33,704 nt of DNA from a virus: IMG/VR virus record IMGVR_UViG_3300046820_002270, positions 1-33,704 of that record; one strand, 5' to 3'. The notes under the pieces are model-generated. The model did no database searches. It was not told the origin of the DNA and saw nothing but the letters and a program-made list of their open reading frames with translations. Of the stretch, positions 3,992 to 22,823 are shown piece after piece. Both the position numbers and the translations under genes were made by a program. Within the stretch, counting starts at the first letter, position 1; every line of letters starts with the position of its first letter.

Positions 3992-6900
3992 TTAATATGT
4001 TCCGCCGTCAAGAGTGTTATACGCAACAACACCGCCGGATATTTGTAAGACTGTGCCTTCGCTACCTACACTTAGCTTTCTAAAACCGTTCGTGCTATTT
4101 GCAACGAGCATATCCTCAGCAGTATACGTATTCAAACCTGTACCACCAGAGTTACCTGCGAGAGGTGTTGACAACGTCAGCGTATTAGCAACGATAGCAA
4201 CGTTCAACGTGCTGTTTGCTGTTAAAGCAACGGTTGTTGAATTGGCAATAAAGCCTGTCAGACCTGCACCACCGGTTCTAATGAACGCTTGTAACGTTGC
4301 AAAGGCAAACGATGTGTTACCTGTATCAACGGTACCAGCTGGTGATGGATCTAATCCTTGGAACAGCTTGTAGATACCACCATCGCTTGCATCACGGAAC
4401 ATACCTGTGTGCTCGTGAGGAGAACCATCGCCTACTTCATAACTTCCGAAGAAACCAATATCAACGACATCACCGGTAGTGTTGTCAGACGCCAACTGAA
4501 TCATCGAGTCAGTAATGCTCAGGTTGTTGGCGCTAATAGTCGTCAATGTGCCGGTAACGTTTAGGTTACCCGATACAACAATGTCATTAACAGCAATTGT
4601 GTTAGCTGTTAGCTTATTGGTAATAGAAACGTTAGCACCAAACGAAGCGTTTGCTGCAACTTGCAGCGTTGTTGCAACGTTTGCAAAACCGTTTATTGTC
4701 GTGTTACCAAACGTTGCCGTAGCGTTGGTTGTTGTGAACCCCGACTGTGTAATCTGTACGTTGATTGTACTGTTACCGACAGAAATTACCGATGTATTAA
4801 CAACAACGTTTGCACCAACGGCAATATGTGTTGTGTTAACAACGGAGTTGCCTGCTGTTAATCCTGTCTGTGTAATGACTGTATTAACAGTTGAGTTACC
4901 AATATACAGAGCCGTCGCGTTCGCAATAACGTTTGCGCCAACAGAGATAACGGAGTTGTTAACAACGACGGTCCGTGTTGCTGTTGCGTATGAAGTACCG
5001 ACTTGTGTAGTGACGGCGTTAACAGTTGAGTTACCAATATACAGAGCCGTCACGTTCGCAATAACGTTTGCACCAGCTGCCAATACTGTTGTGTTAACAA
5101 CAGATGAGCCAACAAGAACAGCAATGGGGCTAACGTTTACTGAAGCTGTGCTGTTAGCAACGCGAATCTGTGTTGAGGTAACGGAAGCGTTAACAGTACT
5201 GTTACCAACAAATAACTGTGTCGTATTTGCAGCAACGTTTGCACCAACATACACACCTGTGGTGTTTGATACGACAGTAACGGTACCGTCGGTTATAACG
5301 ATATCGTTAAAGTCAAGGTTGGTGTATTGTGTGGTGTTACCAACACGAAGAGTAGACGTATTAGCGACGACGTTTGCGCCAACAAACACACCTGTTGTAT
5401 TTGACGTAACCGTAACCGTGCTGTCGGTTATAATGACATCGTTAAAGTCGATAGTTGTAGACTGAGTCGTATTGCCAATACGCAGTGCTGATACGTTAGC
5501 AACGACGTTTGCGCCAACAGATATTTGTGATGTGTTAACGACAGTGGTTACTGTGCCGTTTTGTGCGACGACGCCATTTTGAGACGTGACGCTGTTTACT
5601 GTTGAGTTACCAACAAACACAGTAGTTGTATTTGCAATAACGTTTGCACCAGCTGCTACGACTGTCGTATTGACTCTACTTGTTCCAACATCAATAGACG
5701 TAGGTGTAACGTTCGATGAGCTCGATGCATTTCTAACTGTAATAAACGAGCTGTTTGTGTATGCATTAACAGTCGAATTGCCAACCAGTATAGCATCACC
5801 ATCAATGGTGACATTGCTAACTGTCAGCATTGAACCCTTGAGTTGTAGGTTACCAGCTGTCAACGTCGTGTTGACAGTACTGTTGCCCATGAACAGGGTT
5901 GTTGCATTAAGAGTGACGTTTGCACCAACAGATACTGTTGTTGAATTAACAGTTGAAATACCAACTGTAAATGCAATCGGTGTAACGTTTGCTGTACCAG
6001 TACTATTGGCTGCTTGTATCAGTGTCGATACAACAGTTGCATTGACAGTGCTGTTACCAACGAGCAAGCCGGTCGCTGTTGTAATAACGTTTGCACCAAC
6101 AGATACAGCTGTCGAGTTGACTGTTGAAATGCCAACGGCAAATGCTGTTGGAGTAACGTTTGCCGTACCTGTGCTGTTTGCTACCTGTATCAACGTTGAC
6201 GTAGCAGTTGAATTAACGGTACTATTACCCATGAACAACGCTGTTGCGTTGAGAATAGCGTTTGCACCAACAGATACAGCTGTCGAGTTGACGGTAGAGA
6301 TACCAACAGCAAATGCTGTTGGAGTGACGTTTGCCGTACCGGTACTGTTCGCTGCTTGTATTAGTGTTGAAACGACAGTTGCATTAACGGTGCTGTTACC
6401 AACAAGTAATCCAGTTGTGGTTGCAACGACGTTCGAGCCAACGGAAACCTGTGTTGTGTTGACAGTGGTCGTGACAGAAGGACTAAAAGCAACAATACCG
6501 ACAGGACTGTGAACCGCGTTGACAGTACTGTTACCAGTGTACACAGATGTCAGGTTTGCAACAACGTTAGCACCGATAGAAATTTGCGCAGTGTTAACTG
6601 TTGTAGTGACGGTAGGACTTGCAACAACGACGCCTGTCTGCGTCGACACAACGTTAACTGTGCTGTTACCAACATACAAGGCTGTGGTATTACCAACAAC
6701 GTTAGCGCCAATGTTGATGCTACCGTTTACAGTTAGCGCATCAGTTGCTGCAACAAACGTGAGACCAGCGTCACTCGTTAAACCACCAGTAGAGTTACCA
6801 AACGCAACCTGCGTTGCAGTGACAACACCCGTACGCGTGTCGATGTAGTTCTTAACAGCCCACGATGTGACAAGTTCGTTATTCGAACCAGCCGCAGTAG

Positions 6901-7216
6901 CGCCAAGCTGCGATGTATTTGCTGCTGTGGAGATCGATGTGACGTTGACTGTTGATCCAGCAGCACCGATAATCAGCTTTGCCGTTTGAACAGAATCAAT
7001 CCAACTCGATGCGTTTGCAATCAGTGCTTGATTTGCGGTAAGTATACCTGGATAGCGAGCACCACTAATGGCAACAACGTTTGCTGAGTTGGCAACTCCG
7101 TTCACGCTACCAATGTATAGTATCTCACCGTTTCCAGAGTATGCAAGTTCACCAACGGCAACGCTTGTTGGCACTGCCGAGGTGTTACTTCTCTTTATTT
7201 GAATTTGGTTTGCCAT
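3992..7216 (-). CDS. Large repeat-built tail fibre protein (GNSTVN repeats)
   Basis: This is a 1,074-aa fibre. The N terminus (MANQIQIKRSNTSAVPTS then VGELAYSGNGEILYIG) is the same attachment-type module as in the C1q-like gene nearby. Residues of about 165-820 are a degenerate array in which SVGANV...LxVGNSTVN recurs; within it is a run of about three 57-aa units. The rest is a C-terminal fibre module containing SITDSMIQLASDNTTGDVVD, IGFFGSYEVGDGSPHEHTG and MFRDASDGGIYKLF, a motif set I know from phage fibres, and it ends LDGGTY. The composition is Asn/Thr/Val/Ser with almost no Cys, as expected for a beta-rich trimeric shaft. Its ATG directly abuts the stop of the 73-aa gene (TAAATG). It is probably a long or side tail fibre; its receptor is unknown. 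Confidence 0.78.
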   Translation of the reverse strand: MANQIQIKRSNTSAVPTSVAVGELAYSGNGEILYIGSVNGVANSANVVAISGARYPGILTANQALIANASSWIDSVQTAKLIIGAAGSTVNVTSISTAANTSQLGATAAGSNNELVTSWAVKNYIDTRTGVVTATQVAFGNSTGGLTSDAGLTFVAATDALTVNGSINIGANVVGNTTALYVGNSTVNVVSTQTGVVVASPTVTTTVNTAQISIGANVVANLTSVYTGNSTVNAVHSPVGIVAFSPSVTTTVNTTQVSVGSNVVATTTGLLVGNSTVNATVVSTLIQAANSTGTANVTPTAFAVGISTVNSTAVSVGANAILNATALFMGNSTVNSTATSTLIQVANSTGTANVTPTAFAVGISTVNSTAVSVGANVITTATGLLVGNSTVNATVVSTLIQAANSTGTANVTPIAFTVGISTVNSTTVSVGANVTLNATTLFMGNSTVNTTLTAGNLQLKGSMLTVSNVTIDGDAILVGNSTVNAYTNSSFITVRNASSSSNVTPTSIDVGTSRVNTTVVAAGANVIANTTTVFVGNSTVNSVTSQNGVVAQNGTVTTVVNTSQISVGANVVANVSALRIGNTTQSTTIDFNDVIITDSTVTVTSNTTGVFVGANVVANTSTLRVGNTTQYTNLDFNDIVITDGTVTVVSNTTGVYVGANVAANTTQLFVGNSTVNASVTSTQIRVANSTASVNVSPIAVLVGSSVVNTTVLAAGANVIANVTALYIGNSTVNAVTTQVGTSYATATRTVVVNNSVISVGANVIANATALYIGNSTVNTVITQTGLTAGNSVVNTTHIAVGANVVVNTSVISVGNSTINVQITQSGFTTTNATATFGNTTINGFANVATTLQVAANASFGANVSITNKLTANTIAVNDIVVSGNLNVTGTLTTISANNLSITDSMIQLASDNTTGDVVDIGFFGSYEVGDGSPHEHTGMFRDASDGGIYKLFQGLDPSPAGTVDTGNTSFAFATLQAFIRTGGAGLTGFIANSTTVALTANSTLNVAIVANTLTLSTPLAGNSGGTGLNTYTAEDMLVANSTNGFRKLSVGSEGTVLQISGGVVAYNTLDGGTY
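4757..6709 (-). repeat. Degenerate in-frame repeat array (core GNSTVN; 57-aa units)
   Basis: The coding repeat inside the 1,074-aa fibre. The clearest section (about 5930-6445) has units of 171 bp (57 aa): a segment starting gagttga at 6113 recurs starting gagttga/gagttgac at 6284. Each unit carries TLIQxANSTGTANVTP, AFAVGISTVNST and VSVGANV, then GNSTVN. Units flanking this core are shorter and more diverged, with 22-45 residues between GNSTVN motifs. Confidence 0.75.
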
Positions 7217-9050: not shown

Positions 9051-9899
9051 ATGATGATAAACATCGTTTGTGTTAAAATTGGGACGAAGTATGGAAGTAT
9101 TTATGCAAACAAGTTGTACGAGACATGCGTGCGTAACATTTCACAACAATTCCGCTTTTTTTGTTACACAGATGATGTAGCTGGTCTTGATCCAAGCATT
9201 ATACCTATACAGTTTGTCGACCACGGCCTAGATATCATTGTTTTCAATAAACTATTTCTCCTAAGTGATCAATTTGCTGCACACATTGGTGAACATCCAA
9301 CATTCTTCTTCGATCTTGATATTGTAATTAAAAACAACATCGACTCTCTGATTGATAGATCAAAACACTCTCCCGACTTCAAAGTAATCAATGCTGTTTG
9401 GAAATCTTTGAAGAAGGAAGATACATTTCCCCCCTATCTCGATCACACAGTCAATTCCAGTTGCATGTTCTGGACTCCATATACGACAAATCATATATGG
9501 GACAGCTTCCTTGCTAAAAAACAACAATTCCAACAAACATACTGGCGCGGCATGGATGGGTTTCTCTTTTACGAGCATAACATCCGTGGTGGATTACCGG
9601 AAGACGGTTTTTATTCCTATCTATACGACATCGACAGGAAGGTTAAACGTATTATCACCAACCCTGAGGAATATAAGAAAGTTAAGGCGTCAATTCCCAT
9701 TGTCCTCTTCAACGGCCCCACAACACAAGAAGACATTGACTGTTTCATTAACAACAACTACGAGAGCGACTACTTGCGCTTTGAAGAAACCTTTTCAAGC
9801 TCCCCAGAACGCAGAAAAGAAATTCAAAAAGAGATCAACGACGACATGCAGAAGCGTCAGCTCTCAATGTCATCACACATATCTTCCCACATTCCCTGA
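9051..9899 (+). CDS. Glycosyltransferase-like protein (GT-A, plus strand)
   Basis: This is a 282-aa protein and the only convincing plus-strand gene. Its N-terminal half reads as a GT-A nucleotide-sugar fold: strand INIVCVKIGTKYGSIYANKL, YETCVRNI helix, FRFFCYTDD at 35-42, and FFFDLDIVI with a D88-L-D90 metal-binding DxD. A later WRGMDGFLFYEHN segment could form part of the acceptor site. The last 30 residues are hydrophilic and Ser/His-rich. Two ATGs are adjacent (9051, 9054); no strong ribosome site or late box precedes them. It faces away from the sulfotransferase gene (24-bp gap) and its last 43 bases overlap the 3' end of the oxygenase gene tail to tail. The opposite strand suggests a later insertion (moron-like). 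Donor and acceptor are unknown. Confidence 0.75.
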   Translation: MMINIVCVKIGTKYGSIYANKLYETCVRNISQQFRFFCYTDDVAGLDPSIIPIQFVDHGLDIIVFNKLFLLSDQFAAHIGEHPTFFFDLDIVIKNNIDSLIDRSKHSPDFKVINAVWKSLKKEDTFPPYLDHTVNSSCMFWTPYTTNHIWDSFLAKKQQFQQTYWRGMDGFLFYEHNIRGGLPEDGFYSYLYDIDRKVKRIITNPEEYKKVKASIPIVLFNGPTTQEDIDCFINNNYESDYLRFEETFSSSPERRKEIQKEINDDMQKRQLSMSSHISSHIP

Positions 9900-10465
9900 T
9901 GAGGAATAATATACCCAAGTGTTAGCCTCTCTTCGTGCTCTGCACTTGCGCAGTGCCAGTAGATTTTATCCTTCTCATGCCAAGGACCATAATAACCAAC
10001 TTTGCACGTCCATCCCGGTGTATCCTGCATCGTGACAATCTCTTTTGTCGCTGGATCCTGATAACGGAAAAACCCTTTTCCTTCTGCCGACCAAGAAAGA
10101 AGAATATTATAGCCAGGTGCGTTTGCGTTATGGTGCCATCCCATAAAACCACCTTTAGGATACAACATTTTTACAGCGTTGTTTCTTGAGCCGGACCAGG
10201 CAAGTAGTTCTTCATCTAGCGTTTTCAGTGCACCTTTGAGATTGGGGGGGAGGTGACGTGCCAGATCAACGCCGAGGGTCTTTTCCGGAAACCCATCAAC
10301 GGGCTTGTTCTGCATGTGATTGAGATATTCTTTACCACAGGCATACTCAGATGTAATGTCCGTGCGACCGTATGGGTACTGTGATCTATCCTGTACTAAA
10401 AGCTGATCGAGAAACTTGTTAAGGATAGTGCGCAAGTCTTTGTTGTTTATTTCGATACTCTTCAT
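9857..10465 (-). CDS. 2-oxoglutarate/Fe(II)-dependent oxygenase-like protein
   Basis: This is a 202-aa protein with a double-stranded beta-helix oxygenase pattern in its C-terminal half: GGFMGWHHNANAPGYNILLS (H111, H112, N113, N115), FFRYQDPATKEIVTMQD, GWTCKVGYYGPW, and IYWHCASAEHEERLTLGYI with distal H171 and R180, the usual 2OG-binding arginine. I see no classical HxD; the place is taken by HHNAN, so either an H-x-N variant or a different acidic ligand must be used. Similar short oxygenases with a GWH-N motif occur in marine T4-like phages, where substrates are mostly unknown (protein hydroxylation is often proposed). It overlaps the upstream glycosyltransferase by 4 bases (ATGA) and is antisense-overlapped by the plus-strand gene at its 3' end. 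Confidence 0.72.
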   Translation of the reverse strand: MKSIEINNKDLRTILNKFLDQLLVQDRSQYPYGRTDITSEYACGKEYLNHMQNKPVDGFPEKTLGVDLARHLPPNLKGALKTLDEELLAWSGSRNNAVKMLYPKGGFMGWHHNANAPGYNILLSWSAEGKGFFRYQDPATKEIVTMQDTPGWTCKVGYYGPWHEKDKIYWHCASAEHEERLTLGYIIPHQGMWEDMCDDIES

Positions 10466-11181
10466 TTTCCAACTCTGTGTGGTAGTGTGTGATGATAAAA
10501 AACAATGGGGTTACTTGTCTCACTTAAGTAATACCCATTAACAAAATTCCACCGCGCATCGTCTTTAAACACTTGGACGTTGACGGGGAGCTTGTCTTCA
10601 TTCATTAATTTCCAAAACGTAAACTGATCCCATTGACCAAAAGATTTTGGTATCTCGTTTTCATCATATGGCCATGGCTCTGCACGTTGCTTCACGTAAT
10701 CTTGCCACCATCTCTCCATAAACTGTTTTGTGTGTTCGTTTGTCCGGTAGAGAAAAAAACCACCGTGGTATGTCATTCTTCCAGCTGGGATCGTGAGACC
10801 GCCGGGCCACTTGTCTTCTTTTCCATTATATGGTCTGATTTTTGTAATTAGTATATCACAATCGTCAGGCATCTCATTCCAGATGTTCTGCACGTCCTCG
10901 TGCATACATTCCATATCTGCATCGACATAACAAGTCATCTCCGTGTACGGTGTACGTGACAAGGCGTAAAGCTTTGTCCGTATGTGAGAGGGAACATTCT
11001 CACTAATGATTGAATCATAGACGTCATCATCAACACGATCACGCAAATTGGGCGTGACAAACAGTGTGATGTGCGAGTCGGGGTAGTAATCTTTTATACT
11101 TGCAGCAAGAAAATTTGCGCCGACAACGTAGCCTGGATCCTGCGAGGCTACAATCAAAAAACCATTACGAATATCTGCCAT
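10462..11181 (-). CDS. Glycosyltransferase-like protein (DxD type)
   Basis: This is a 239-aa protein with a GT-A-like layout: N-terminal strand GFLIVASQDPGYVVGANFLA, a YYPDSHITLFVTP strand, RTKLYALSRTPYTEMTCYVD leading to the D87-A-D89 metal motif (YVDADMECM), then GRMTYHGGFFLYRTNEHTKQ at about 143-162 and a late SFGQWDQFTFWKLM with YHHTLPHR at the C terminus. The H-G-G and terminal H-H segments are consistent with sugar-nucleotide enzymes of the GT8-like type. There is no membrane segment. It begins within the TAA of the small upstream gene (TAATG) and overlaps the oxygenase by 4 bases, placing it in a four-gene coupled chain that starts with the 1,297-aa fibre. The fibre is therefore a reasonable candidate acceptor, but host or phage glycans remain possible. 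Confidence 0.72.
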   Translation of the reverse strand: MADIRNGFLIVASQDPGYVVGANFLAASIKDYYPDSHITLFVTPNLRDRVDDDVYDSIISENVPSHIRTKLYALSRTPYTEMTCYVDADMECMHEDVQNIWNEMPDDCDILITKIRPYNGKEDKWPGGLTIPAGRMTYHGGFFLYRTNEHTKQFMERWWQDYVKQRAEPWPYDENEIPKSFGQWDQFTFWKLMNEDKLPVNVQVFKDDARWNFVNGYYLSETSNPIVFYHHTLPHRVGK

Positions 11182-11639
11182 TACTGTTCCTGTGTGCCTT
11201 CATCCTGTTCAGGCGCGGCTTGTTGATTCTGCATTGTGTCCAGAATAATAGCAGCTGCCATTGCATACACTTCAAAGTCGCTCTTTGCACGACGAAGTGC
11301 TGACTTTAGATTCTTGTTTGTTGTATTTTTTATAGCATCTACCTCAAATGCTCCCAGCTTGACTTGGAATAAACGTTCCTGACGCTCACGTTCCTTTTGA
11401 GCTTCTTCTTGTGCTTTTTGTCGATCGCGCTCGCCTTGAATTTTTCGAATATTGTTAGCAGTATTTTGTTCAAGCTCCGCGTCCGTGAACTTAGTGCGGA
11501 TTTCCTGATAGTCGGGGTTGTTCGATTCGTTAGAGTTAATGACCGCAGTCATTACACGACCATCGTCATAGTGAAACTCGGCTGACAAGACCGTTCTTGC
11601 GTTATTGGTCCAATGTGGATTCTTTATGGTTCTTTTCAT
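11181..11639 (-). CDS. Small coiled-coil helper of the fibre operon
   Basis: This is a 152-aa protein of a hypothetical family that I associate with the gene just after a fibre in marine T4-like phages. It begins MKRTIKNPHWTNNARTVLSA, has a short beta-like part (FHYDDGRVMTAVINSN), then a charged helix rich in Gln/Lys/Arg/Glu (EAQKERERQERLFQVKLGAF), a second helix (LKSALRRAKSDFEVYAMAAA) and an acidic Gln-rich tail. I chose the ATG at 11639 rather than the TTG at 11654 because it makes a classical ATGA overlap with the stop of the 1,297-aa gene. The location and coiled coil suggest a fibre assembly chaperone or trimerisation aid; this is inference, and there are no enzymatic motifs. Confidence 0.65.
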   Translation of the reverse strand: MKRTIKNPHWTNNARTVLSAEFHYDDGRVMTAVINSNESNNPDYQEIRTKFTDAELEQNTANNIRKIQGERDRQKAQEEAQKERERQERLFQVKLGAFEVDAIKNTTNKNLKSALRRAKSDFEVYAMAAAIILDTMQNQQAAPEQDEGTQEQ

Positions 11640-14600
11640 GCTATTCTTACCCAAAGTTTAAACGTTGATATTGTCTCTGGAGTTGATATAATTGTCAACC
11701 CTGTGTACGCACCAGTGAACGATCCCACATATGCGCCTGAGTATGCTGTAGAGTATACGCCAGTATATAGTCCAGTGTAAATTCCAGTGAACGCGCTAGT
11801 GTATACACCAGAGAAAGCACCTGTCCAGGCATTGCCGTAAGTTCCTGAGTACTGACCAGTAAACGATCCAGTATAGTTGCCAACGTAGACGGTGGTAAAT
11901 GTATTGGTGTATATACCGGTGAATGTGTTCTGGTAATTGCCAACGAACGCTCCGGTGAAACTGCCCGTGTAGTTACCGACATATGCACCGCTGTAATTGC
12001 CCGTCCACGATTGTAAATATGTTCCTGAGTAGTTCCCCGTGAAGAAACCTAAGTAAATGCCAACAAATTGACCGGTAAACGTACTTTGGTAACCGCCTGC
12101 AAATATACCAGTAAAGTTACCAGTGTAGTTACCAACGTACGCACCTGACCACTGACCTGTGAACGCACCGATATACCCACCAGTATAATTACCCGTGAAC
12201 GTACCAACGTATCCTCCGGAATAATTACCCGTGAATGTGCCGACATATCCTCCGGAATAATTTCCCGTAAACGCACCAACAAAACCACCACTGTACTGAC
12301 CAGTAAACGCACTTGCATACGCACCTGCAAAAATACCCGTAAAGCTACCAGTATAGTCTCCTATGTACGCGCCACTATACAGGCCAGAAAACGCACTCGC
12401 ATATCCACCAGTGTACTGACCGGTGAATGTACTTTGATAACCACCGGCAAATATACCAGTGAAGCTACCCGTATAATTTCCCACATAGGCGCCCGACCAT
12501 TGACCAGTAAACGCACCAACATAACCACCACTATATTGACCAGTGAATGTGCTTTGGTAACCACCGGCAAAAATGCCAGTGAAGCTACCAGTATAGTTTC
12601 CAACGTACGCGCCACTATACAGGCCAGTAAACGAACCGACGTAGCCGCCACTATACTGACCAGTGAATGTGTTTTGGTAACCACCTGCAAATATACCCGT
12701 AAAGCTACCTGTGTAGTTTCCTACATAAGCACCACTATACAGGCCAGTAAACGTTTGTTGATAGTTACCAACATACGCACCAGCAAAGTTCTGAGCATAA
12801 GTTCCGGCAAAGATACCCGTAAAGCTACCTGTGTAGTTTCCTACATAATCACCGGCAAAGTTTGACGCATAAGCACCTGCGTATGCACCCGTCCACGGAG
12901 CGTTATAAGTGCCCGCATATACGCCGGTCCAGTACTGTGAATACGTACCAGCAAAGAAACCTGTGTAGAAAGCTGTGTAGTCTCCTGCATAGGCACCAGC
13001 ATATGCTCCAGCATACGAACCGGAAAAAGCTTGTGTGTAGGCGCCTGTGAAGAAGCTTGTGTAGTACCCCGCAAAAGTTTTAGCAACGTTTCCGTAAGCC
13101 ATGATGTAACTACCAGCGTAGAAGTTCTCCTGACGGCCACCAAAGGTGCGTCGGTAACTACCAACGTAATATCCAACGTATGCCGCTATACCAGCGCCAT
13201 AACCCATGATGTAACTACCAGCGTAGAAGTTCTCCTGACGGCCACCAAAGGTGCGTCGGTAACTACCAACGTAATATCCAATATACACCGCTACACCGGC
13301 ACCGTATCCCATGATGTAACTACCAGCGTAGAAGTTCTCCTGACGGCCACCAAAGGTGCGTCGGTAACTACCGACATAATATCCAACATAAACGGCACGT
13401 GAATAGTATCCGGTGTAATAACCTAGGTATGATGTACTATAGCTGCCTGCAAAAGACGAGGAGTATGATCCAGCATAAAATCCAGTATAATATCCGGTGT
13501 ATACGCCGGAGAACACACGAGCAAAAGCGGTAGCATATGTGCCTGTCCATGATTGAACATATGTGCCAGAATAGGTGCCCGTCCATGCACGTGTATACGT
13601 ACCTGCGTAGAAGCCAACAAAGTAACCTACGTAAATGCCTGTGTAACTACCTGTAAAGATACGCGAGTATGCACCGGAATAGTTTCCTGTAAAGAAACCA
13701 GTATATAAGCCAGTGTACGAGCCAGTAAACGTACCCACGTAACCGCCCGTGTAAGTGCCCGTATAACTGCCACTGAAGACACGCGAGTATGTTCCTGCAT
13801 ATGCTCCGGTAAACGTACCTACGTAGCCGCCCGTGTATAGACCAGTGAACGTCTGGTTATACACACCCGTATAAGCACCGGTGTACGTACCACTGAACAC
13901 ACGTGAATATGTTCCTGCATATGCTCCGGTAAACGTACCTACGTAGCCGCCCGTGTAGAGGCCAGTAAACGTCTGGTTATACACACCCGTATAAACACCA
14001 GTGTAACTACCACTGAATACCCGTGAATACACTCCAACGTAGTTGCCTGTAAACGTGCCTACGTAGCCGCCCGTGTAGACGCCCGTGAAGAAGCTCCCAT
14101 AAGCTCCTCCGTAAGCACCAGTGTAGCTACCGCTGAATACACGCGAGTATGTTCCTGAGTAGTTGCCTGTAAAGAAACCTGTGTAGAATCCAGTGTAGAG
14201 GCCAGTGAAAACCTGTGAGTACGTTCCCGCAAATACACCGGTAAATGTACTCTGATAGCTACCGACGTAAACGCCAGTGAAAGTGCTCTGATAGTTACCA
14301 ACATACACACCGGTAAATGTCTGGTTATACACGCCCGTGTAAGTGCCCGTATAACTGCCACTGAATACACGCGAGTATGTTCCTGAGTAGTTGCCTGTAA
14401 ACGTGCCTACGTAGCCGCCCGTATAGACACCACTCCATGTACTCTGATAGTTGCCAGTATACGTGCCTGTCCACGCCTGTGTGTATATGCCAGTGTATAT
14501 GCCAGTATATAAGCCGCTGAAGACGCGCGAGTAAATGCCTGTGTATAAACCAGAGAACGTTCCTATGTACGCACCGGTAAACGCGCCTGTAAAGGTATTG

Positions 14601-15529
14601 GTGTACGCACCTGTAAATACTTGATTGTATATACCAGTATACACACCGGTGTATGCAGCACTGAAGGCTTGTTGATATGTACCTGTGAATCCCTGGGCAT
14701 ACACACCAGTAAAATTACCACCGTAAGTGCCACTGAACGCACGCGTGTAAGCACCTGTAAATGATTGGTTGTATGTGCCAGCATATGGTTGCTCTTGTGT
14801 TTGATAACGCGTATCATCAAAACCACTTCCAGCCTGCACCCACGTACCTGGGCTGACAGGAGTGGTGGTTGAAAGCTGATACTGACCAATCCCACTGGTA
14901 ACAATGTAGTTACGAACTTTTTGAGTCAGCGTTTTTATATCGTCATCAGTCATCTCACGCATGCCAGCGGAGAATTTGATTGGCCGTTTAACCGTTGTGT
15001 AGGAACCATCGGTACGTTGCCACAACGTTGTCGTGTTGGTTGTGCCGGTCGTCAGTGTATTCGTTAATGTGCCACGTGAAGCCCATGTACCGGTCACAGG
15101 TGCTGTCGGCTGCAACACGTATGCGCCAGGACCTGAAAGAAGCATACCCTGAACAATGTTGTTGCAGAGATTATCAGCTATATCCGTGTCGTTGAATACT
15201 TTGAAGTAATTGTTGCTACTCCAACCAACAGGTCGAACCAATGGTTCGTTTATTGCAGAGTTTGAGAGATTTTGGTAAACAGTTGTACTGTTTGTGCCTA
15301 TTGAGCTTGGACTGACTGGGTGACTTCCTAGTGAGTCGGTGCGATACGTATCGACCCATGTACCGATCGACGTTCCATTTGCCATTGAACCAACAGCCAA
15401 CGAACCAACGCTGGTGTTCGAAGCAAAGTGTGACCCAATCACTGGAACGATGTAGTCCGTCATGTCCGTATAGGACATGGACTGAAGCCCATCTAGTGTG
15501 GTATTGTATCTGAGAGCAGTTATGGCCAT
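11636..15529 (-). CDS. Giant x-aromatic-x-Gly repeat fibre (1,297 aa)
   Basis: This protein has three parts. Residues 1-248 hold three diverged copies of a domain ending in G-T-W (MSYTDMTDYIVPVIGS...GTW at 58; a DTDIADNLCNNIVQ...GTW at 149; EMTDDDIKTLTQKV...GTW at 230), with a LWQRTDGSYTTVKRPIKF linker. Residues of about 249-1276 are an almost uninterrupted tetrapeptide array, x-(Tyr/Phe/Trp)-(Thr/Ser/Ala/Val)-Gly, with periodic breaks such as YSRVFSG and YNQTFTG, and one insertion of three 35-aa cassettes. The last 21 residues end KLWVRIA. The composition is extreme: Gly and aromatic residues make up about half of the array. There is a shorter paralogue just upstream. The ATG lacks an obvious ribosome site. 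I infer a virion fibre or adhesin; no function is known to me for this repeat. Confidence 0.75.
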   Translation of the reverse strand: MAITALRYNTTLDGLQSMSYTDMTDYIVPVIGSHFASNTSVGSLAVGSMANGTSIGTWVDTYRTDSLGSHPVSPSSIGTNSTTVYQNLSNSAINEPLVRPVGWSSNNYFKVFNDTDIADNLCNNIVQGMLLSGPGAYVLQPTAPVTGTWASRGTLTNTLTTGTTNTTTLWQRTDGSYTTVKRPIKFSAGMREMTDDDIKTLTQKVRNYIVTSGIGQYQLSTTTPVSPGTWVQAGSGFDDTRYQTQEQPYAGTYNQSFTGAYTRAFSGTYGGNFTGVYAQGFTGTYQQAFSAAYTGVYTGIYNQVFTGAYTNTFTGAFTGAYIGTFSGLYTGIYSRVFSGLYTGIYTGIYTQAWTGTYTGNYQSTWSGVYTGGYVGTFTGNYSGTYSRVFSGSYTGTYTGVYNQTFTGVYVGNYQSTFTGVYVGSYQSTFTGVFAGTYSQVFTGLYTGFYTGFFTGNYSGTYSRVFSGSYTGAYGGAYGSFFTGVYTGGYVGTFTGNYVGVYSRVFSGSYTGVYTGVYNQTFTGLYTGGYVGTFTGAYAGTYSRVFSGTYTGAYTGVYNQTFTGLYTGGYVGTFTGAYAGTYSRVFSGSYTGTYTGGYVGTFTGSYTGLYTGFFTGNYSGAYSRIFTGSYTGIYVGYFVGFYAGTYTRAWTGTYSGTYVQSWTGTYATAFARVFSGVYTGYYTGFYAGSYSSSFAGSYSTSYLGYYTGYYSRAVYVGYYVGSYRRTFGGRQENFYAGSYIMGYGAGVAVYIGYYVGSYRRTFGGRQENFYAGSYIMGYGAGIAAYVGYYVGSYRRTFGGRQENFYAGSYIMAYGNVAKTFAGYYTSFFTGAYTQAFSGSYAGAYAGAYAGDYTAFYTGFFAGTYSQYWTGVYAGTYNAPWTGAYAGAYASNFAGDYVGNYTGSFTGIFAGTYAQNFAGAYVGNYQQTFTGLYSGAYVGNYTGSFTGIFAGGYQNTFTGQYSGGYVGSFTGLYSGAYVGNYTGSFTGIFAGGYQSTFTGQYSGGYVGAFTGQWSGAYVGNYTGSFTGIFAGGYQSTFTGQYTGGYASAFSGLYSGAYIGDYTGSFTGIFAGAYASAFTGQYSGGFVGAFTGNYSGGYVGTFTGNYSGGYVGTFTGNYTGGYIGAFTGQWSGAYVGNYTGNFTGIFAGGYQSTFTGQFVGIYLGFFTGNYSGTYLQSWTGNYSGAYVGNYTGSFTGAFVGNYQNTFTGIYTNTFTTVYVGNYTGSFTGQYSGTYGNAWTGAFSGVYTSAFTGIYTGLYTGVYSTAYSGAYVGSFTGAYTGLTIISTPETISTFKLWVRIA
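13101..13415 (-). repeat. Three tandem 105-bp cassettes (RRTFGGRQENF)
   Basis: Copies start at 13101, 13206 and 13311, exactly 105 bp (35 aa) apart. The first 62 bp are identical in all three, without even synonymous change; the remainder differs at a few sites. Each encodes a block with SYRRTFGGRQENFYAGSYIM. This is the only strongly basic and charged part of an otherwise Gly/aromatic array. Confidence 0.9.
13791..14150 (-). repeat. 120-bp higher-order repeats within the tetrapeptide array
   Basis: Blocks beginning at 13791 and 13911 are nearly identical over 120 bp (40 aa, ten tetrapeptide units, containing TYSRVFSG and VYNQTFTGLYTG). A third, more diverged copy follows at 14031. This points to local duplication in multiples of the 12-bp unit. 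Confidence 0.75.
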
Positions 15530-15538
15530 ATTGACAAA

Positions 15539-15546
15539 TATTTATT
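15539..15546 (-). promoter_or_regulatory. Weak late-promoter-like box ahead of the 1,297-aa fibre
   Basis: The minus strand reads AATAAATA, one mismatch from TATAAATA, beginning within the stop of the 633-aa gene. The ATG follows only 9 bases later, so a transcript from it would have almost no leader. It may be a chance match in an AT-rich junction. Confidence 0.22.
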
Positions 15547-17447
15547 TAAGCTGTACGTACGTACAAGCTCTTAGTCGTTGTCTGCAGCGTGTTCTGCGCA
15601 GTAAGGCCTGTGTAAACTCCTGTATACGTTCCGGTCCACGCCCGCGTATATACGCCCGTGTATGCTCCCGAGTATGCACTTGTATAAGCGCCTGTAAACC
15701 CGCCACTGTAAACTCTATTATAAGCTCCTGTGTATGGTACTAATGAAGAATATGCTCCTGTATATATCCCACTGAAAGCACCGGTGAATGACTGAGCATA
15801 TGCTCCAGTAAATATTCGACTATACGTGCCTGAGTATGTTGAAGTAAACGAGGCATTTACGACTCGTGAATATACACCAGACCATGCACGTGTAAATGCT
15901 TGACTGTAGGCGCCTGAGTAGAAACCAGTAGTATACTCGCCTACAAATGCACCAGTCCATGTTTTTGCAATATCTTGATATGTACCGAGGTAGCTACCGG
16001 CGTAGAAGTTTTCCTGACGGCTACCAAACGTGCGCCGGTAACCACCGGTCCAATAACCGACATACGCTGTGCCAGTTACAGGCCCATATGCTCCAAGGTA
16101 GCTACCAGAGTAGAAGTTCTCCTCACGGCCACCAAAGGTGCGACGGTAACCACCAGTATACGCACCAATGTAAATAAGCGACTCAACGTTATACGCGCCA
16201 ATATAACCGCCCGTGTAGTTATTTTCCTGACGGCTACCAAACGTACGCAAGAATGCTCTTGTGTATGTGCCAATGTACGATGGACGGGTAAATAAACCGG
16301 TGTAGCTTCCCGCATATACACCAGTAAAGTAAATTATGTAACTGCCGGTGAATGCTCCTGTGTAACTTGTATTGTATGCGCCGGTGTACGAGCCGGGATA
16401 GGCTGCGGAGAAGGTTGAATTATACAATCCACTGAACGCGCCGGTGTATCCACCAGAGAAGGCACCGGTAAAGACATTGTTGTACGTACCGACGTATGGA
16501 CCACTAAACGGCGTAAGTAGGTTGTAGATGCCGGTCCACACTCGTGTAAAGTCATTACCATACTGACCGGTAAATGTACTTTGATAAGTTCCCGCGTATA
16601 TACCTGTGTAACTACCAACATATGTTCCAGCATAGTACCCGGTGTAAGAGTCGTCAAATGTAATGTTGAGGCGTTCGGTAGCAGCTCCAAGTGCCGTCCA
16701 CGAGCCGGTACCTGGGTAATTATTACCAAAAAAATATTGGCCAATTCCTTTTGTACGGATAGATTCACCAATAAAAACATACAGAGACTCTATTTCCGTG
16801 TCAGTCATTTCAACAAGACGTTGCTCGCCATTCACGAGCGTGTACTTGAGGGGTCTATATGTCGAACCTATCGATAAGGTATCCGTACGTTGCCATAAAA
16901 TGTAAGTGATCTGTGTAAGAGTTGTATTATTCCAATACGTATCATAAAAATTCGATACTTGGGTCCATGTACCTGAAGCTCCTAAAACGTTTGGATTTTG
17001 CGAACTAGAAGTAATGTAATAACTACCGTTACCGAGTACCGTTAATTTTTCAATGGTCGTTGGGAGAAGGTAGTCATAGATGTCTGAGTTAGACATCTCC
17101 AAAATTTGCTGCTCGTTACCGTTTGCAACATAATGAACAGGACGAGCACTGACGGAGGGCGTGATTGCTCTCTCATTTTGAGTAAACGTATAGGTTGCAA
17201 TTGTATTAACTGTGACCGGATGTGCGCCCGCGCCATCAGAAGTATGGTAGTCAATAAACGCACCACGGCTGACATCGTATGTGCCAGTGCCGTTAATTCT
17301 TAATTTTGATCCGTATACCGAATCAGGGTTTGCTAGTGCATAGTTGACAAGCTTAGGAACAATGATATCGGCAATCTCTGCGTTCGACATCTCCTGAACC
17401 CCAATAGCGACACCGTTGTCGTACTTCGCTCTAAGAGGTCTTCCCAT
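15546..17447 (-). CDS. x-aromatic-x-Gly repeat fibre (633 aa, paralogue)
   Basis: A shorter paralogue of the neighbouring 1,297-aa protein with the same architecture. Residues 1-266 carry three copies of the N-terminal domain: VQEMSNAEIADIIVPKLV at 17-34, ILEMSNSDIYDYLLPTTIEK at 115-134 with GTW at 159, and LVEMTDTEIESLYVFIGESI at 211-230 with GSW at 248, joined by RPVHY/RPLKY and LWQRTD linkers. Residues 267-614 are the Tyr/Phe-x-Gly array, including three RTFG-R-EN cassettes. The C terminus (KSLYVRTA) matches the KLWVRIA end of the paralogue. This suggests tandem gene duplication followed by array expansion in one copy. It lies 1 bp after the 402-aa fibre. An attached, possibly trimeric fibre is likely; the array's fold is unknown. 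Confidence 0.75.
   Translation of the reverse strand: MGRPLRAKYDNGVAIGVQEMSNAEIADIIVPKLVNYALANPDSVYGSKLRINGTGTYDVSRGAFIDYHTSDGAGAHPVTVNTIATYTFTQNERAITPSVSARPVHYVANGNEQQILEMSNSDIYDYLLPTTIEKLTVLGNGSYYITSSSQNPNVLGASGTWTQVSNFYDTYWNNTTLTQITYILWQRTDTLSIGSTYRPLKYTLVNGEQRLVEMTDTEIESLYVFIGESIRTKGIGQYFFGNNYPGTGSWTALGAATERLNITFDDSYTGYYAGTYVGSYTGIYAGTYQSTFTGQYGNDFTRVWTGIYNLLTPFSGPYVGTYNNVFTGAFSGGYTGAFSGLYNSTFSAAYPGSYTGAYNTSYTGAFTGSYIIYFTGVYAGSYTGLFTRPSYIGTYTRAFLRTFGSRQENNYTGGYIGAYNVESLIYIGAYTGGYRRTFGGREENFYSGSYLGAYGPVTGTAYVGYWTGGYRRTFGSRQENFYAGSYLGTYQDIAKTWTGAFVGEYTTGFYSGAYSQAFTRAWSGVYSRVVNASFTSTYSGTYSRIFTGAYAQSFTGAFSGIYTGAYSSLVPYTGAYNRVYSGGFTGAYTSAYSGAYTGVYTRAWTGTYTGVYTGLTAQNTLQTTTKSLYVRTA
15606..16649 (-). 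repeat. Tetrapeptide x-aromatic-x-Gly array, about 87 units
   Basis: The array of the 633-aa paralogue, about 348 residues in 12-bp coding units such as YYAG TYVG SYTG IYAG. It is more irregular than in the larger protein, with more Asn, Arg and Ser breaks. Confidence 0.8.
15970..16284 (-). repeat. Three diverged 35/36-aa cassettes (RRTFG-R-EN)
   Basis: Copies of the basic cassette occur around 16013, 16121 and 16226 (spacing 108 and 105 bp). They encode YRRTFGSRQENFYAGSYLG, YRRTFGGREENFYSGSYLG and LRTFGSRQENNYTGGYIG. They are homologous to the cassettes at 13101-13415 but differ from one another, unlike those. Confidence 0.8.
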
Positions 17448-17448
17448 T

Positions 17449-18657
17449 TCATGGTCCTACTCGTGTGCCGCTGACATTGTAAATGCCAAAGTTTCCTGCA
17501 TGCACGACATTACCACTCTTGTATTGAATGTTTGACATATCAATTGTCAATCCTGCCGTTGTCGATGTTGCATTCTGTTGTAAGTTGAATACAAAACCAC
17601 CGTCTTTAACAGAAGAGTTTGAATTGTCGTATGTCGTAAACGTTAGACGACTATTTGACGTGTTACTCGTCATAAAAGCAATCGTTGCGTTCTGTGACGC
17701 ATTCGATGTGCTCTTTAATTTTAAGCCCGTGTTTGATGTTGTGAATAACGTGTTGCCATTGATTGTGATGGCATCTGTCGTTGATGGTGCATTGTTTTTA
17801 ACACCAACAACTTTGTTAACTGCGTCAATAAAGAGAGCATCAGTTGAAACTGCAACGTTACCGCTTAGTGTTGTTACGCCAGCAACAGTAAATGCTCCGT
17901 TAACAATACCACTACCAAGAACACGAAGAGTACCTACGTTTGCTACGCCAACAGGAGCAAATAAAGATCCATTGCTCGAAAGAACAATCTTTACCGGTGT
18001 TAAAGTGTGTCCAGTTTCGCTTGTACCGCTTGCTGTTAAGTTAATGTTCGCGCCACCAAACGACGTTGCAAGTTGGAACGCCGTTGCGTTTGCGCTTATA
18101 ACGTGGTAAAAGGTAGCGTTGGTCAAACCAGTAACGGCTGTATTGCCAGCTGCAACAAGATACTGAACAAGCTCACCGTTACTAAAACCATGGACAGCTG
18201 CTGTAGTAATAAAGTCCGTTGCCGTTGCAACCCCACTAGCAGCATTAAACGAAGCTGAGCTACCGATAAAACTGTGTGTGTTTGATTGTGTCGATGTAAC
18301 AGCAGTGACTGTGTTTGCTGTAATTTGCCATAGACGGACGGCTGAACCAAACTGCGCTGATGTGTTTGATGTTGGAATAATAACATCAGCCGACGCGTTT
18401 GTTAACTGTGCAACACCTGTTGAGGTGACATTGCCAGCAAACAACTTGGATGTGTGTATTATCCAACGCTGTGTGGTGTTACCAAGAGCGTATGTATCGT
18501 CAGATGTAGGTTTGTAATCAGCCGAGCTCGTACCACTAAAAGCGAGGTTACCCCCGACAGCAAAGTCGCCTTCAACCCTGAAGTTACCGCTAACGTTGGC
18601 TGTTCCAACAACCTCTAATCCGTTATCGACTTTGAATTTTGTATTACTAGCAGCCAT
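17449..18657 (-). CDS. Tail fibre-like protein with ALGNTTQRW and HGF/ETGH modules
   Basis: This is a 402-aa fibre-type protein. Residues of about 1-45 (KFKVDNGLEVVGTANVSGNF, RVEGDFAVGGNLAFSG) are short beta repeats. SDDTYALGNTTQRWI at about 53-67 is the common phage-fibre motif (T-D-x-x-Y-x-L-G-x-x-x-x-R-W), and a second LW motif follows (AQFGSAVRLWQI). Residues of about 143-220 form a compact module from ATDFITTAAVHGF to SGTSETGHTL that also occurs in the gp7-like protein of this window. The C-terminal part has an INGN...FTTSNTG..LKS pattern and ends GIYNVSGTRVGP. It is one of four fibre genes in tandem; a clear AAGGTAAG ribosome site precedes the ATG. It is probably a fibre segment or adaptor. 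Confidence 0.68.
   Translation of the reverse strand: MAASNTKFKVDNGLEVVGTANVSGNFRVEGDFAVGGNLAFSGTSSADYKPTSDDTYALGNTTQRWIIHTSKLFAGNVTSTGVAQLTNASADVIIPTSNTSAQFGSAVRLWQITANTVTAVTSTQSNTHSFIGSSASFNAASGVATATDFITTAAVHGFSNGELVQYLVAAGNTAVTGLTNATFYHVISANATAFQLATSFGGANINLTASGTSETGHTLTPVKIVLSSNGSLFAPVGVANVGTLRVLGSGIVNGAFTVAGVTTLSGNVAVSTDALFIDAVNKVVGVKNNAPSTTDAITINGNTLFTTSNTGLKLKSTSNASQNATIAFMTSNTSNSRLTFTTYDNSNSSVKDGGFVFNLQQNATSTTAGLTIDMSNIQYKSGNVVHAGNFGIYNVSGTRVGP
17996..18230 (-). repeat. Dispersed HGF...ETGH module, copy in the fibre gene
   Basis: This encodes a module of about 75 aa: HGFSNGELVQYLVAAGNTAV, GLTNATFYHVISANATAFQL, INLTASGTSETGHT. A clear homologue lies at about 31553-31785 in the gp7-like gene. 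Confidence 0.7.
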
Positions 18658-20579: not shown

Positions 20580-20796
20580 TTGTCTTTCCGTTCAATAATT
20601 GTTGGAGCATCTGCTTAATATCACTCATTTCCCGTTGCAGGCCTTGCACCTGGTCTACGGCTTTATAAAGTTGCAAATGCTTCTCTCGTTCTTTGAGATA
20701 TTGTGCATATCCTTGCTTGTCTATATTTAGAATAGCCGTTGATCGACTATCTCGAACGTATCTGTAATCATCCGTTTTAAGTAGGTTGTTTTTCAT
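20572..20796 (-). CDS. Small conserved coiled-coil protein (74 aa)
   Basis: A 74-aa protein of a family I recognise as a small hypothetical placed ahead of fibre genes in T4-like marine phages: MKNNLLKTDDYRYVRDSRST, then AILNIDKQGYAQYLKEREKH, then a helix VQGLQREMSDIKQMLQQLLN with heptad spacing. It has no enzymatic motif. The ATG overlaps the TGA of the preceding baseplate gene (ATGA), and its own stop lies inside the start of the 636-aa fibre, so it is translationally locked between them. An assembly factor or a small baseplate component is possible; the function is unknown. Confidence 0.7.
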   Translation of the reverse strand: MKNNLLKTDDYRYVRDSRSTAILNIDKQGYAQYLKEREKHLQLYKAVDQVQGLQREMSDIKQMLQQLLNGKTNG

Positions 20797-22823
20797 GCTG
20801 AAACTGCAATTGCTCGTATATCATCGACATAAGGAATACGTATACCGTCACTCGAAAGAAGAACTAGCTTAACAGTAAACTTATCATACCCTCTAAACAC
20901 GGCACCAGCCTTATTAAAATATGTCAACACACTTCTAGATTGCACGTCAAGGAATGCGCTCTGTGGTCGTGACAGGACATCCACCTTGAAGCCGCTTCCC
21001 AATATACTTGCGTTTGATCCGGGACCAGTAGCAACCGTTATAGTTGTCGCGTTTGCTGCAACGACTGTATCAACAAAGTAGTTATTTGGGAAGGTCGTAG
21101 AGTATACGCGTACTGAAGAACCAACAGGCACGTTTGTACCTACTGTTCCACTTGTTCCTATTATAACGGTACAAGCAGATCCCACTGTAAAGGTACCCGT
21201 TGCAGCTGTTCCTTTACCATAGTAAGGAACCTCAAAAGGCAATTCCTTGAAGTCGTAAATATTTGAAGGGCTGCTGAAAGGAACATCTGTACCCACAAAA
21301 GAAAGCTGGGTCCAATCTTTCAGATCGATACTCTCAGGATCTTCACTGTTATGAAAACGTGCATATGCTTCGATTGTTGTTCCGGACGGTCTGTAACCGC
21401 GAAGATACAGTTTCATATCCTCGGAAACTTGATCTGCAAGATCCACCGTCTTTGTTATATAACGTGCCTGCGCAGATCCAGCGCCCTTATATTCATTCGT
21501 TGACGTATTGTTTATATCATAACGCTCAACGAATAAGTCCAGGTTTTCTTCACGAACATATGGCGACACGTAAGGATTGTTTGTTGTAAACGTCAACGTG
21601 CCGGCAAATGGATTTGCCTCGCCAGCTAAAATACGATTCGTTTGCGAGCTCATCACAGCATCGTAACTATTAACAAACATGCGCTGACCGAGGGTTGCGT
21701 CGACCTGTCTTGAAGCCAGCACGGTGCCACCGTTGTTGGCAAAGTTTAGAGTAGCTGTTGCTGTAGTACCACCAGGTGTCCGTATTGCATAGTTCGGCAC
21801 AACGCTATTTAATTGATAGTCTGTTATTGCAGAGATTGTTGCAGATGCTAACGAATCTACACCTTTGATGTTGTCGCCAACAGCAAAGTAGGTTGTAGTG
21901 TTAGCTGTCGAATCGTTTAGAACTATGCTATCGGAAATACCATCAGCATAGAACATTTTTGCGGTTGGTGTCTTATAGTATTTTCCGACTGCGTTTGTAA
22001 AAGAAGGAGGTTCCGTGAGTGTCAACAATGTTGTGTTTGATCGCGAAGCAACAATGCGCACTTCTGTATTTTCCGCTGTTCCATCTGTAATTACAAAAGC
22101 GTCGCCTTCGTTAAGTGTGGAGAAGTTTGTACCCGTCCCAACAAGAGACGTGGAAGAAGCATTGATACTTACGGTGCCCGTTGCATTCGCAGACACCTTG
22201 TAGACATCTTCCCCGCCTTTAAATGTACCGGTTTTATCACTAAACGAAATCAATTCGTACGGACGACTGCTAACCTGGAACGTCATGGAGGTTGCAGTGT
22301 GCTTTGCAACCTTGAGACGGAACGCAAGATCTGCATCGACAACCGGTGTTAGAGTCTTACCGTTCGTCATTGTGAACAACGAGCCGTCTACCTTTCCGGA
22401 AGACACTGATGTTTTTGTGGTTGTGCCAAGAATATTTTCGCCAGCTTTGTTATACCAAATTTTAAAGTCCGGGTCACTACCGTCAAACTTAATCAAAATT
22501 GCATACTTGCGATCTGATGGTGCTGGCAATGGCTGATTAAAGACAAACGATGTTGTATCTGTTCCGTCTGTATCCGCGACAATATTATCATACTCAACAC
22601 GTGCTGAAAATGTATGGTGGTAGAGAGTCAGATCCGGTGATCCGTCTTCTTTACACCCACAGAGAAAAATAGAGATACCAGGTTTGTTAATGCCTGATTT
22701 TGTTTTGCCTGCTGTTGGCTTTCTGTATATGTAAAGATCAATTCCAGTAATGCTTGCTACATCAGCACCCTGGATGGCATCTTTATCAAGAAAGAATGTT
22801 TGAGCTAAATCGAATCCTGCCAT
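20793..22823 (-). CDS. Baseplate/tail structural protein (AQTF family, 676 aa)
   Basis: The N terminus MAGFDLAQTFFLDKDAIQGA and ITGIDLYIYRKP...GISIFLCGCKEDGSPDL belongs to a beta-sandwich type (P-x-AQTF, then I-D-L-Y-F, then G-x-P) common in large myovirus baseplate proteins, where it often forms the C-terminal part of a DUF4815 protein. Here it is a separate gene. A later region, ARYITKTVDLADQVSEDMKL / YLRGYRPSGTTIEAYARFHN and LKDWTQL, is also typical, as is the end VKLVLLSSDGIRIPYVDDIR. Insertions with GTGTNFSTLNEGDAFVITDG-like short beta modules lie between. It probably forms part of the baseplate rim or the fibre attachment. It occupies the zone of T4 genes 9-11, without clear similarity to those proteins. 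Confidence 0.7.
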   Translation of the reverse strand: MAGFDLAQTFFLDKDAIQGADVASITGIDLYIYRKPTAGKTKSGINKPGISIFLCGCKEDGSPDLTLYHHTFSARVEYDNIVADTDGTDTTSFVFNQPLPAPSDRKYAILIKFDGSDPDFKIWYNKAGENILGTTTKTSVSSGKVDGSLFTMTNGKTLTPVVDADLAFRLKVAKHTATSMTFQVSSRPYELISFSDKTGTFKGGEDVYKVSANATGTVSINASSTSLVGTGTNFSTLNEGDAFVITDGTAENTEVRIVASRSNTTLLTLTEPPSFTNAVGKYYKTPTAKMFYADGISDSIVLNDSTANTTTYFAVGDNIKGVDSLASATISAITDYQLNSVVPNYAIRTPGGTTATATLNFANNGGTVLASRQVDATLGQRMFVNSYDAVMSSQTNRILAGEANPFAGTLTFTTNNPYVSPYVREENLDLFVERYDINNTSTNEYKGAGSAQARYITKTVDLADQVSEDMKLYLRGYRPSGTTIEAYARFHNSEDPESIDLKDWTQLSFVGTDVPFSSPSNIYDFKELPFEVPYYGKGTAATGTFTVGSACTVIIGTSGTVGTNVPVGSSVRVYSTTFPNNYFVDTVVAANATTITVATGPGSNASILGSGFKVDVLSRPQSAFLDVQSRSVLTYFNKAGAVFRGYDKFTVKLVLLSSDGIRIPYVDDIRAIAVSA

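Follow-up and report, generated by a model that had tools for sequence, protein, structure and literature searches.

Two adjacent proteins of a T4-like phage are probably giant antiparallel beta-hairpin host-recognition fibres

Introduction

Most phage fibres known so far are built as trimeric coiled coils, beta-helices or strings of small domains. In the gp38 adhesin, which sits at the end of a gp37 trimer, the hypervariable tip loops lie between glycine-rich motifs, and to our knowledge this adhesin has neither an aromatic column at tetrad spacing nor mirror-image arms. The present analysis concerns two adjacent paralogous proteins, gA and gB, encoded on the minus strand of a stretch of 33,704 nucleotides (33.7 kb; IMG/VR virus record IMGVR_UViG_3300046820_002270, positions 1 to 33,704; hereafter the window), which carry long arrays of x-aromatic-x-Gly tetrapeptides and are probably giant antiparallel beta-hairpin host-recognition fibres of a T4-like phage.

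The T2/S16-type gp38 adhesin resembles gA and gB as a glycine-rich host-recognition part of a T4-like phage, and glycine-rich motifs forming a polyglycine-rich domain are cited for it (PMC12892980). No structural similarity to S16-type gp38 was found by Foldseek against PDB at E <= 0.001, the far arms of the query model being of low confidence. A likeness of another kind is the Tyr-Gly cross-strand pair ('mortise-tenon'), which stabilises the sheet in outer-membrane beta-barrels and autotransporters (Michalik et al. 2017, PMC5542473). Judging from register and covariation, Tyr would likewise lie opposite Gly on neighbouring antiparallel strands in the gA/gB family. The mortise-tenon, however, is an isolated pair in a membrane barrel, whereas in gA the pair would be repeated along arms of more than 100 units, alongside a rule that sets Phe or Trp over non-Gly residues, and the two are not homologous. 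The pair itself is already known; the novelty lies in a phage protein employing it as a long repeated rule and adding the Phe/Trp counterpart. A limited search of open-licence texts yielded no description of such a fibre, and profile searches of PHROGs gave no significant match for gA, gB or 28 relatives, whether to the T4-type long tail fibre (gp34-gp37) or to any other fibre family.

Results

An earlier, sequence-only reading of the window had proposed two adjacent paralogous genes at 11636-17447, carrying about 257 and about 87 tetrapeptide units under a strict aromatic/glycine rule and bounded by a three-copy N-terminal domain and a common C terminus. The two genes stand, on the minus strand, as gA and gB (Table 1), and the unit counts are near those obtained here, with 231 units over the two arms of gA plus 21 in its tip, and 86 aromatics in the array region of gB. 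There are 192 aromatic-x-Gly units in gA, where composition shuffles gave 56, and 52 in gB, where they gave 15; gA contains two runs of aromatics at exact four-residue spacing, 116 and 115 long, compared with runs of at most 8 in shuffles. The aromatic column of the 231 arm units holds 144 Tyr, 77 Phe and 10 Trp, and the glycine column 180 Gly, 15 Gln, 13 Ser, 11 Arg and 12 others (51 non-Gly). The pattern is far above that of the shuffles, but the word 'strict' went too far, as Gly is kept in only 78% of gA units, with systematic exceptions. The claim that codons vary between units through selection on the protein fared better: when identical tetrapeptides of gA are compared pairwise, the DNA differs in 463 of 494 pairs, so the pattern appears to be maintained at the protein level.

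The N-terminal region of proteins with simple arrays (the simple class) consists of a domain of about 85 amino acids (aa) present three times, each copy comprising a helix (MTDxEI), a strand and a hairpin with the motifs GTW...DTR and TTxxLWxRT. Profile-profile comparison bears out the three copies of the earlier reading, with E 1.6e-22 between copies 2 and 3 and 1.7e-11 between copies 1 and 2. The whole array separates the two hairpin strands of copy 3, and the C-terminal motif TVSTxxLWxRTA, shared as had been claimed by gA and gB (LWVRIA and LYVRTA), corresponds to TTxxLWQRT of copy 2; adding the C-terminus to copy 3 raised its profile score from 102.1 to 113.6. The return strand of the copy-2 hairpin has its homologue in the C-terminus, so the array and tip lie inside the copy-3 hairpin, starting and ending at one place; as the array splits the two strands of that hairpin, it is an enlarged hairpin loop.

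Carrying the pairing of the copy-2 hairpin over to copy 3 fixes the register of the two arms from the base and predicts Tyr opposite Gly. In the model of L034, a short relative, the paired residues of the copy-2 hairpin sum to 320, as read off the strand limits 146-156/164-174, and the register sum was taken as S = a + b + 3, a denoting the Trp in GTW and b that in the C-terminal LW. Calculated from nothing but the two ends, the midpoint S/2 coincides with a conserved turn, [YF][YF]xGxxxG, in the majority of members; for gA and gB it lies at the middle one of three GGRQEN/GGREEN mini-hairpins, which in gA is centred on the mirror axis at residue 763. In simple members one arm is a single unit longer than the other (n|n-1), from 116|115 in gA through 20|19 (L119), 17|16 (L057), 14|13 (L114), 12|11 (L034) and 9|8 (L064) to 5|4 in the shortest. 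Insertions that break the phase are palindromic (7,5,6|5,5,7 in L046 and L098; 10,5,5,5|4,5,5,10 in L012), and of the 246 phase changes found across members, 202 are matched by a mirror partner at most 6 residues away; random placement would give 99.8. A few members resembling the mosaic protein of phage C48C1 (described below) are also strongly mirrored, for example L311 (81 versus 13 in any other phase). The DNA of gA has no inverted repeats that reach 16 bases, and the mirror is therefore not trivially made at the DNA level. Mirror symmetry is shown at the level of sequence. A further regularity is seen in L046, L098, L251, L254, L287, L303 and others: each arm consists of blocks of 22 residues, made up of five tetrads and two extra residues, and the blocks of the two arms mirror each other.

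The residues that depart from the glycine rule covary with the aromatic residues of the opposite arm. With the register fixed from the base only, non-Gly residues of gA lie opposite Phe or Trp in 45 of 50 cases; when the unit order of arm 2 was shuffled (blocks of 1, 2 or 6; 6000 shuffles), this share fell from 90% to a mean of 39% and a maximum of 66%. The corresponding share in the relative L124 is 87%, against 34-35% and a maximum of 67% in the same shuffles. Across 60 simple-class proteins at register 0, Phe or Trp stands opposite 79% of non-Gly residues (n=273) and 18% of Gly residues (n=1549), while shifts of 4 to 24 residues give 12-42% and 22-34%, respectively. With redundancy removed, register 0 has an odds ratio of 13 (10.7 when gA, gB and L124 are left out), and no other register within +-40 exceeds 2.3. 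Taken singly, gA has its best score at register 0 among the offsets tested within +-120 (p 5.8e-18; runner-up 2.6e-5), as does L124 (p 4.1e-15). The covariation thus appears in the sequences at the register set a priori. No covariation peak at register 0 was seen for the outer face (positions 1 and 3) of the 60 proteins. On the outer non-aromatic face, mutual information between opposite arms peaks instead at offset -4, perhaps reflecting twist, hairpin-hairpin packing or relatedness.

Structure prediction with AlphaFold2 (AF2) was informative near the base. The model of L034 (367 aa; 28 sequences) has a mean predicted local distance difference test score (pLDDT) of 81.7, with most of the base above 90, and its strands 241-289/315-365 prolong the copy-3 hairpin as predicted by S=600; its copy 2 forms a hairpin (the strands named above) homologous to that of gA copy 2. 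The gB model (17 sequences) has base strands 250-272/608-631, matching S=882, and an N-terminal domain with pLDDT mostly 70-94. These models support a hairpin near the base and are silent on the far arms.

Table 1. Coordinates of the gA and gB genes, their parts and neighbouring genes in the window (HMM, hidden Markov model; ORF, open reading frame).
Feature	Position	Strand	Basis or remark
gA, putative hairpin-fibre protein, 1297 aa	11636..15529	-	ORF; period-4 aromatic runs; mirror register
gA domain copy 1 (residues 1-98)	15236..15529	-	Copy 1 versus copy 2 profile; weak in gA alone (6.9 bits)
gA domain copy 2 (residues 99-182), short ordinary hairpin GTW...LWQR	14984..15235	-	HMM domain E 1.4e-28
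gA domain copy 3, N-terminal part (residues 183-248), outgoing strand from W230	14786..14983	-	HMM E 9.1e-12
gA arm 1, 116 x-aromatic-x-Gly units (residues 249-711)	13397..14785	-	
gA tip (residues 712-818), three putative mini-hairpins, 4|3 aromatics around GGRQEN turns	13076..13396	-	
gA arm 2, returning, 115 units (residues 819-1277)	11699..13075	-	
gA C-terminal strand ISTFKLWVRIA (within residues 1278-1297)	11639..11698	-	Aligns with end of copy 2; completes copy 3
gB, gA paralogue, putative hairpin-fibre protein, 633 aa	15546..17447	-	ORF; AF2 base strands fit register S=882
gB N-terminal three-copy domain (residues 1-262)	16662..17447	-	HMM copies 2 and 3: E 4.6e-19 and 3.4e-5
gB arm 1 (about residues 264-388)	16284..16658	-	
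gB tip, three putative 4|3 mini-hairpins (RRTFGGREEN type), axis at residue 441	15969..16283	-	
gB arm 2 (about residues 494-613)	15609..15968	-	
gB C-terminal strand TTKSLYVRTA	15549..15608	-	
VrlC-like baseplate protein, upstream end of host-recognition cluster	20793..22823	-	
402-aa fibre-like protein directly upstream of gB	17449..18657	-	Position -1 is a fibre-like gene in relatives
+1 gene, about 152 aa, downstream of gA	11181..11639	-	Candidate dedicated assembly chaperone, from position only
+2 gene, GT-A-like glycosyltransferase, invariant Y-x-D-x-D	10462..11181	-	Sub-threshold Pfam
+3 gene, 202 aa, invariant W-H-x-N...H...R	9857..10465	-	Oxygenase-like by eye only

Discussion

In the architecture proposed for gA and gB, a base of three related domains would anchor the protein, and the beta-hairpin of the third domain would be hugely prolonged, the chain leaving as an x-aromatic-x-Gly strand, turning at the tip and running back as a second such strand, with its final residues, LWVRxA, completing the base domain. 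On one of the faces, a Tyr in one arm would sit over a Gly in the other, and wherever Gly is replaced (by Gln, Arg, Ser or Asn) the opposite residue would be Phe or Trp, a pairing rule that would keep the arms in register. At about 464 residues, the gA arms would extend roughly 150 nm if straight, ending in three small tip hairpins, and the gB fibre would reach roughly 40 nm (our own estimates, at 0.33 nm per residue). The product would be a stiff antiparallel ribbon, probably stabilised by oligomerisation, which probably reaches the host surface and may contact it through the tip or the outer Thr/Ser face. A bolder form of this proposal, in which one chain makes a hairpin of more than 100 nm, a two-letter rule (Tyr:Gly, Phe/Trp:non-Gly) sets the exact register in the manner of nucleic-acid complements and the arms lengthen or shorten in step, is favoured with less assurance. 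If true, it would represent a new way of building a long thin fibre, legible from sequence alone, that might also guide the design of protein materials. Host-recognition-cluster proteins of many IMG/VR T4-like phages, annotated as hypothetical if at all, would moreover gain a testable identity.

Several observations weigh against this proposal. About 40% of full-length members, those of the C48C1-like type with mosaic arrays and inserted domains, have no clean single register. Support from gB alone is modest, with p 0.004 at register 0 and a slightly better 0.003 at offset -36, and the Fisher p-values overstate significance because homologous sequences are not independent. The 60-protein set was picked by a Tyr/Gly mirror score, which fixes the phase, though not the rule relating Phe to non-Gly. 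In the predicted structures, pLDDT falls below 50 in the tip of L034 (roughly residues 273-325) and in the remainder of the gB array. Finally, a two-stranded ribbon this long would probably not be stable by itself, so that some oligomer would be needed.

The last point leads to an alternative that keeps the antiparallel arms but pairs them between chains, in a homotrimer or domain-swapped assembly where the outgoing arm of one chain lies against the returning arm of the next in a six-stranded shaft. This would suit the probable instability of a bare ribbon and the fact that phage fibres are usually trimers, and covariation in a homo-oligomer gives the same signal for intra-chain and inter-chain pairing. 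Against it, AF2 closes the base hairpin within one chain, albeit from an input of one chain only, and three domain copies per chain can give pseudo-threefold symmetry without a trimer; overall, pairing between chains is an appreciable possibility, if the lesser one. A lower chance is given to a hairpin built as proposed that serves elsewhere than in adsorption, for instance by decorating the head or collar or by being secreted during infection. The fibre role is a predicted one, and the glycosyltransferases of such clusters could act on the host surface instead, as has been proposed for those of the pelagimyophage host-recognition cluster (PMC7029224). The genes nevertheless have a fixed place directly after the VrlC-like baseplate and fibre-like genes, with neck genes downstream, and this position of the cassette supports the host-recognition role.

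The architectures put forward in the sequence-only reading were a beta-solenoid, a glycine-rich sandwich and an amyloid-like or condensate-forming fibre, none of which predicts mirror symmetry, insertion into copy 3 or the opposite-arm pairing rule; together, these three features argue for an antiparallel hairpin, and the mirror-symmetric arm pair inserted in domain copy 3 had been overlooked. A continuous thin beta-solenoid, or another one-way shaft with the C-terminus at its far end, is highly improbable, since it leaves unexplained the n|n-1 arms, the mirrored interruptions, the covariation at a single register and the homology between the C-terminus and a base hairpin's return strand, even though short Gly-containing repeats are common in solenoids and AF2 confidence in the outer arms is low. 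The composition, rich in Tyr, Gly, Ser and Thr, and the same low confidence in the far arms would also fit a sticky, disordered or amyloid/condensate-forming tail, but disordered stickers would not be expected to keep an exact four-residue spacing through 116 units, an exact mirror register or pairing specific to position, and the long-range register covariation makes pure disorder unlikely despite the AF2 scores; such a tail is accordingly given very little credence. What survives of the earlier interpretation is a pair of paralogous fibre-like proteins with an aromatic/Gly beta pattern, without the architectures as stated. Its further claim that the repeat belongs to no known family also holds: in addition to the PHROGs result, NCBIfam and PDB sequences gave nothing for the gA/gB family, and Foldseek against PDB and BFVD gave nothing with E <= 0.001 (far arms of the query model again of low confidence). 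Pfam Gly-zipper_YMGG (PF13441) scored 47.5 bits on gA against a cut-off of 28.9, over six array stretches, with no match to gB. Members of that Pfam family are helical Gly zippers, and the identity was rejected, as the match looks compositional, AF2 predicts strands and no helix in the inner array, and the mirror register fits antiparallel strands.

Genomic context and relatives

The carrier of gA and gB is a T4-like virus of bacteria. Its gp8 is nearest to those of Caulobacter phage Cr30 and Sinorhizobium phages phiM12/phiM19 (34-37% identity), and the gene order on the minus strand of the window runs from the end of gp6 through gp7, gp8, two VrlC-like genes, a small virion protein and fibre-like proteins to gB, gA, the protein of about 152 aa, glycosyltransferase-like genes, an L-shaped-tail-fibre-assembly-like protein and neck and sheath-stabiliser genes. 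For marine T4-like phages, the term host recognition cluster has been introduced for the stretch from VrlC to the neck genes (PMC7029224). The gA/gB locus, lying between the VrlC-like/baseplate genes and the neck genes as it does in relatives, is the tail-fibre/host-recognition region. The 402-aa protein upstream of gB had no family or phage match in library and phage searches.

Relatives were collected by two DNA-pattern scans of IMG/VR, one for the array and one for the array end with the C-terminus, each matching at least 119 stretches; some matches of the array scan were unrelated low-complexity runs. Family members occur in at least 107 IMG/VR loci with strong synteny. Relative to the hairpin gene, a VrlC-like gene lies at -3, a 73-aa gene at -2 and a fibre-like gene at -1, and homologues of the +1, +2 and +3 genes lie at exactly those positions in at least 102, 93 and 85 occurrences, respectively, so that the cassette appears conserved by gene content and order. 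Both gA and gB share the defining features of the family: the three-copy N-terminal domain, the x-aromatic-x-Gly array, the C-terminal L[WYF]x[RK]xA and the +1/+2/+3 genes. The ATG of the +1 gene at 11639 overlaps the stop of gA as ATGA, and this gene may encode a folding helper. The fixed positions of the +2 and +3 genes in most of the loci suggest linked modification of the fibre, and both are possible modifiers of its Thr/Ser-rich surface. Assignment of the +3 gene as a 2-oxoglutarate oxygenase was left unconfirmed by Pfam and PDB profile searches, which gave no library match. Matches to the DNA patterns in bacterial genomes were rejected as short low-complexity runs (GGYGGGYGG, KYYGKYYG and similar) in which no common ends were seen.

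Among 50,697 phage records, C48C1 alone was found with a true relative, a 'hypothetical protein' (WJE88074.1 in OQ984149, Kyanoviridae; 3347 aa) that has an N-terminal domain and a C-terminus homologous to those of gA and gB, carries Tyr/Gly tetrad arrays and is adjoined, as in the window, by homologues of the +1 and +3 genes. Unlike gA, it is a mosaic with TRTRxS-type arrays and several inserted domains, and the simple two-arm mirror rule does not extend to the entire chain. Its gene (L007:5572-15615) encodes near-identical duplicated stretches, with KTRHRSYLYYSTDTS... occurring twice in tandem, and long Y-T-R-T-R-x-S arrays whose 8-residue period constitutes a second repeat rule. The 'structural protein' of cyanophage S-RIM2 (L008:3408-9146) carries an aliphatic four-residue repeat and resembles gA and gB in having Gly at a fixed phase of its TGN[VL] tetrads, but differs from them in lacking a long period-4 aromatic run and common N- and C-termini. 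This and other weak tblastn matches in cyanophages were rejected as compositional, the TGN[VL] tetrads being aliphatic without an aromatic column.

Three further genes of the window were recorded. A 1074-aa protein near the tail-fibre-assembly-like gene (3992-7216, minus strand) had no match in PHROGs, NCBIfam or PADLOC. A glycosyltransferase-like gene (9051-9899, plus strand; phrog_1962, E 1.7e-5) lies on the strand opposite to the surrounding structural genes. Inside the baseplate/fibre region, 23277-23819 (minus strand) matches phrog_1128, an enoyl-CoA hydratase-like family (E 4e-24).

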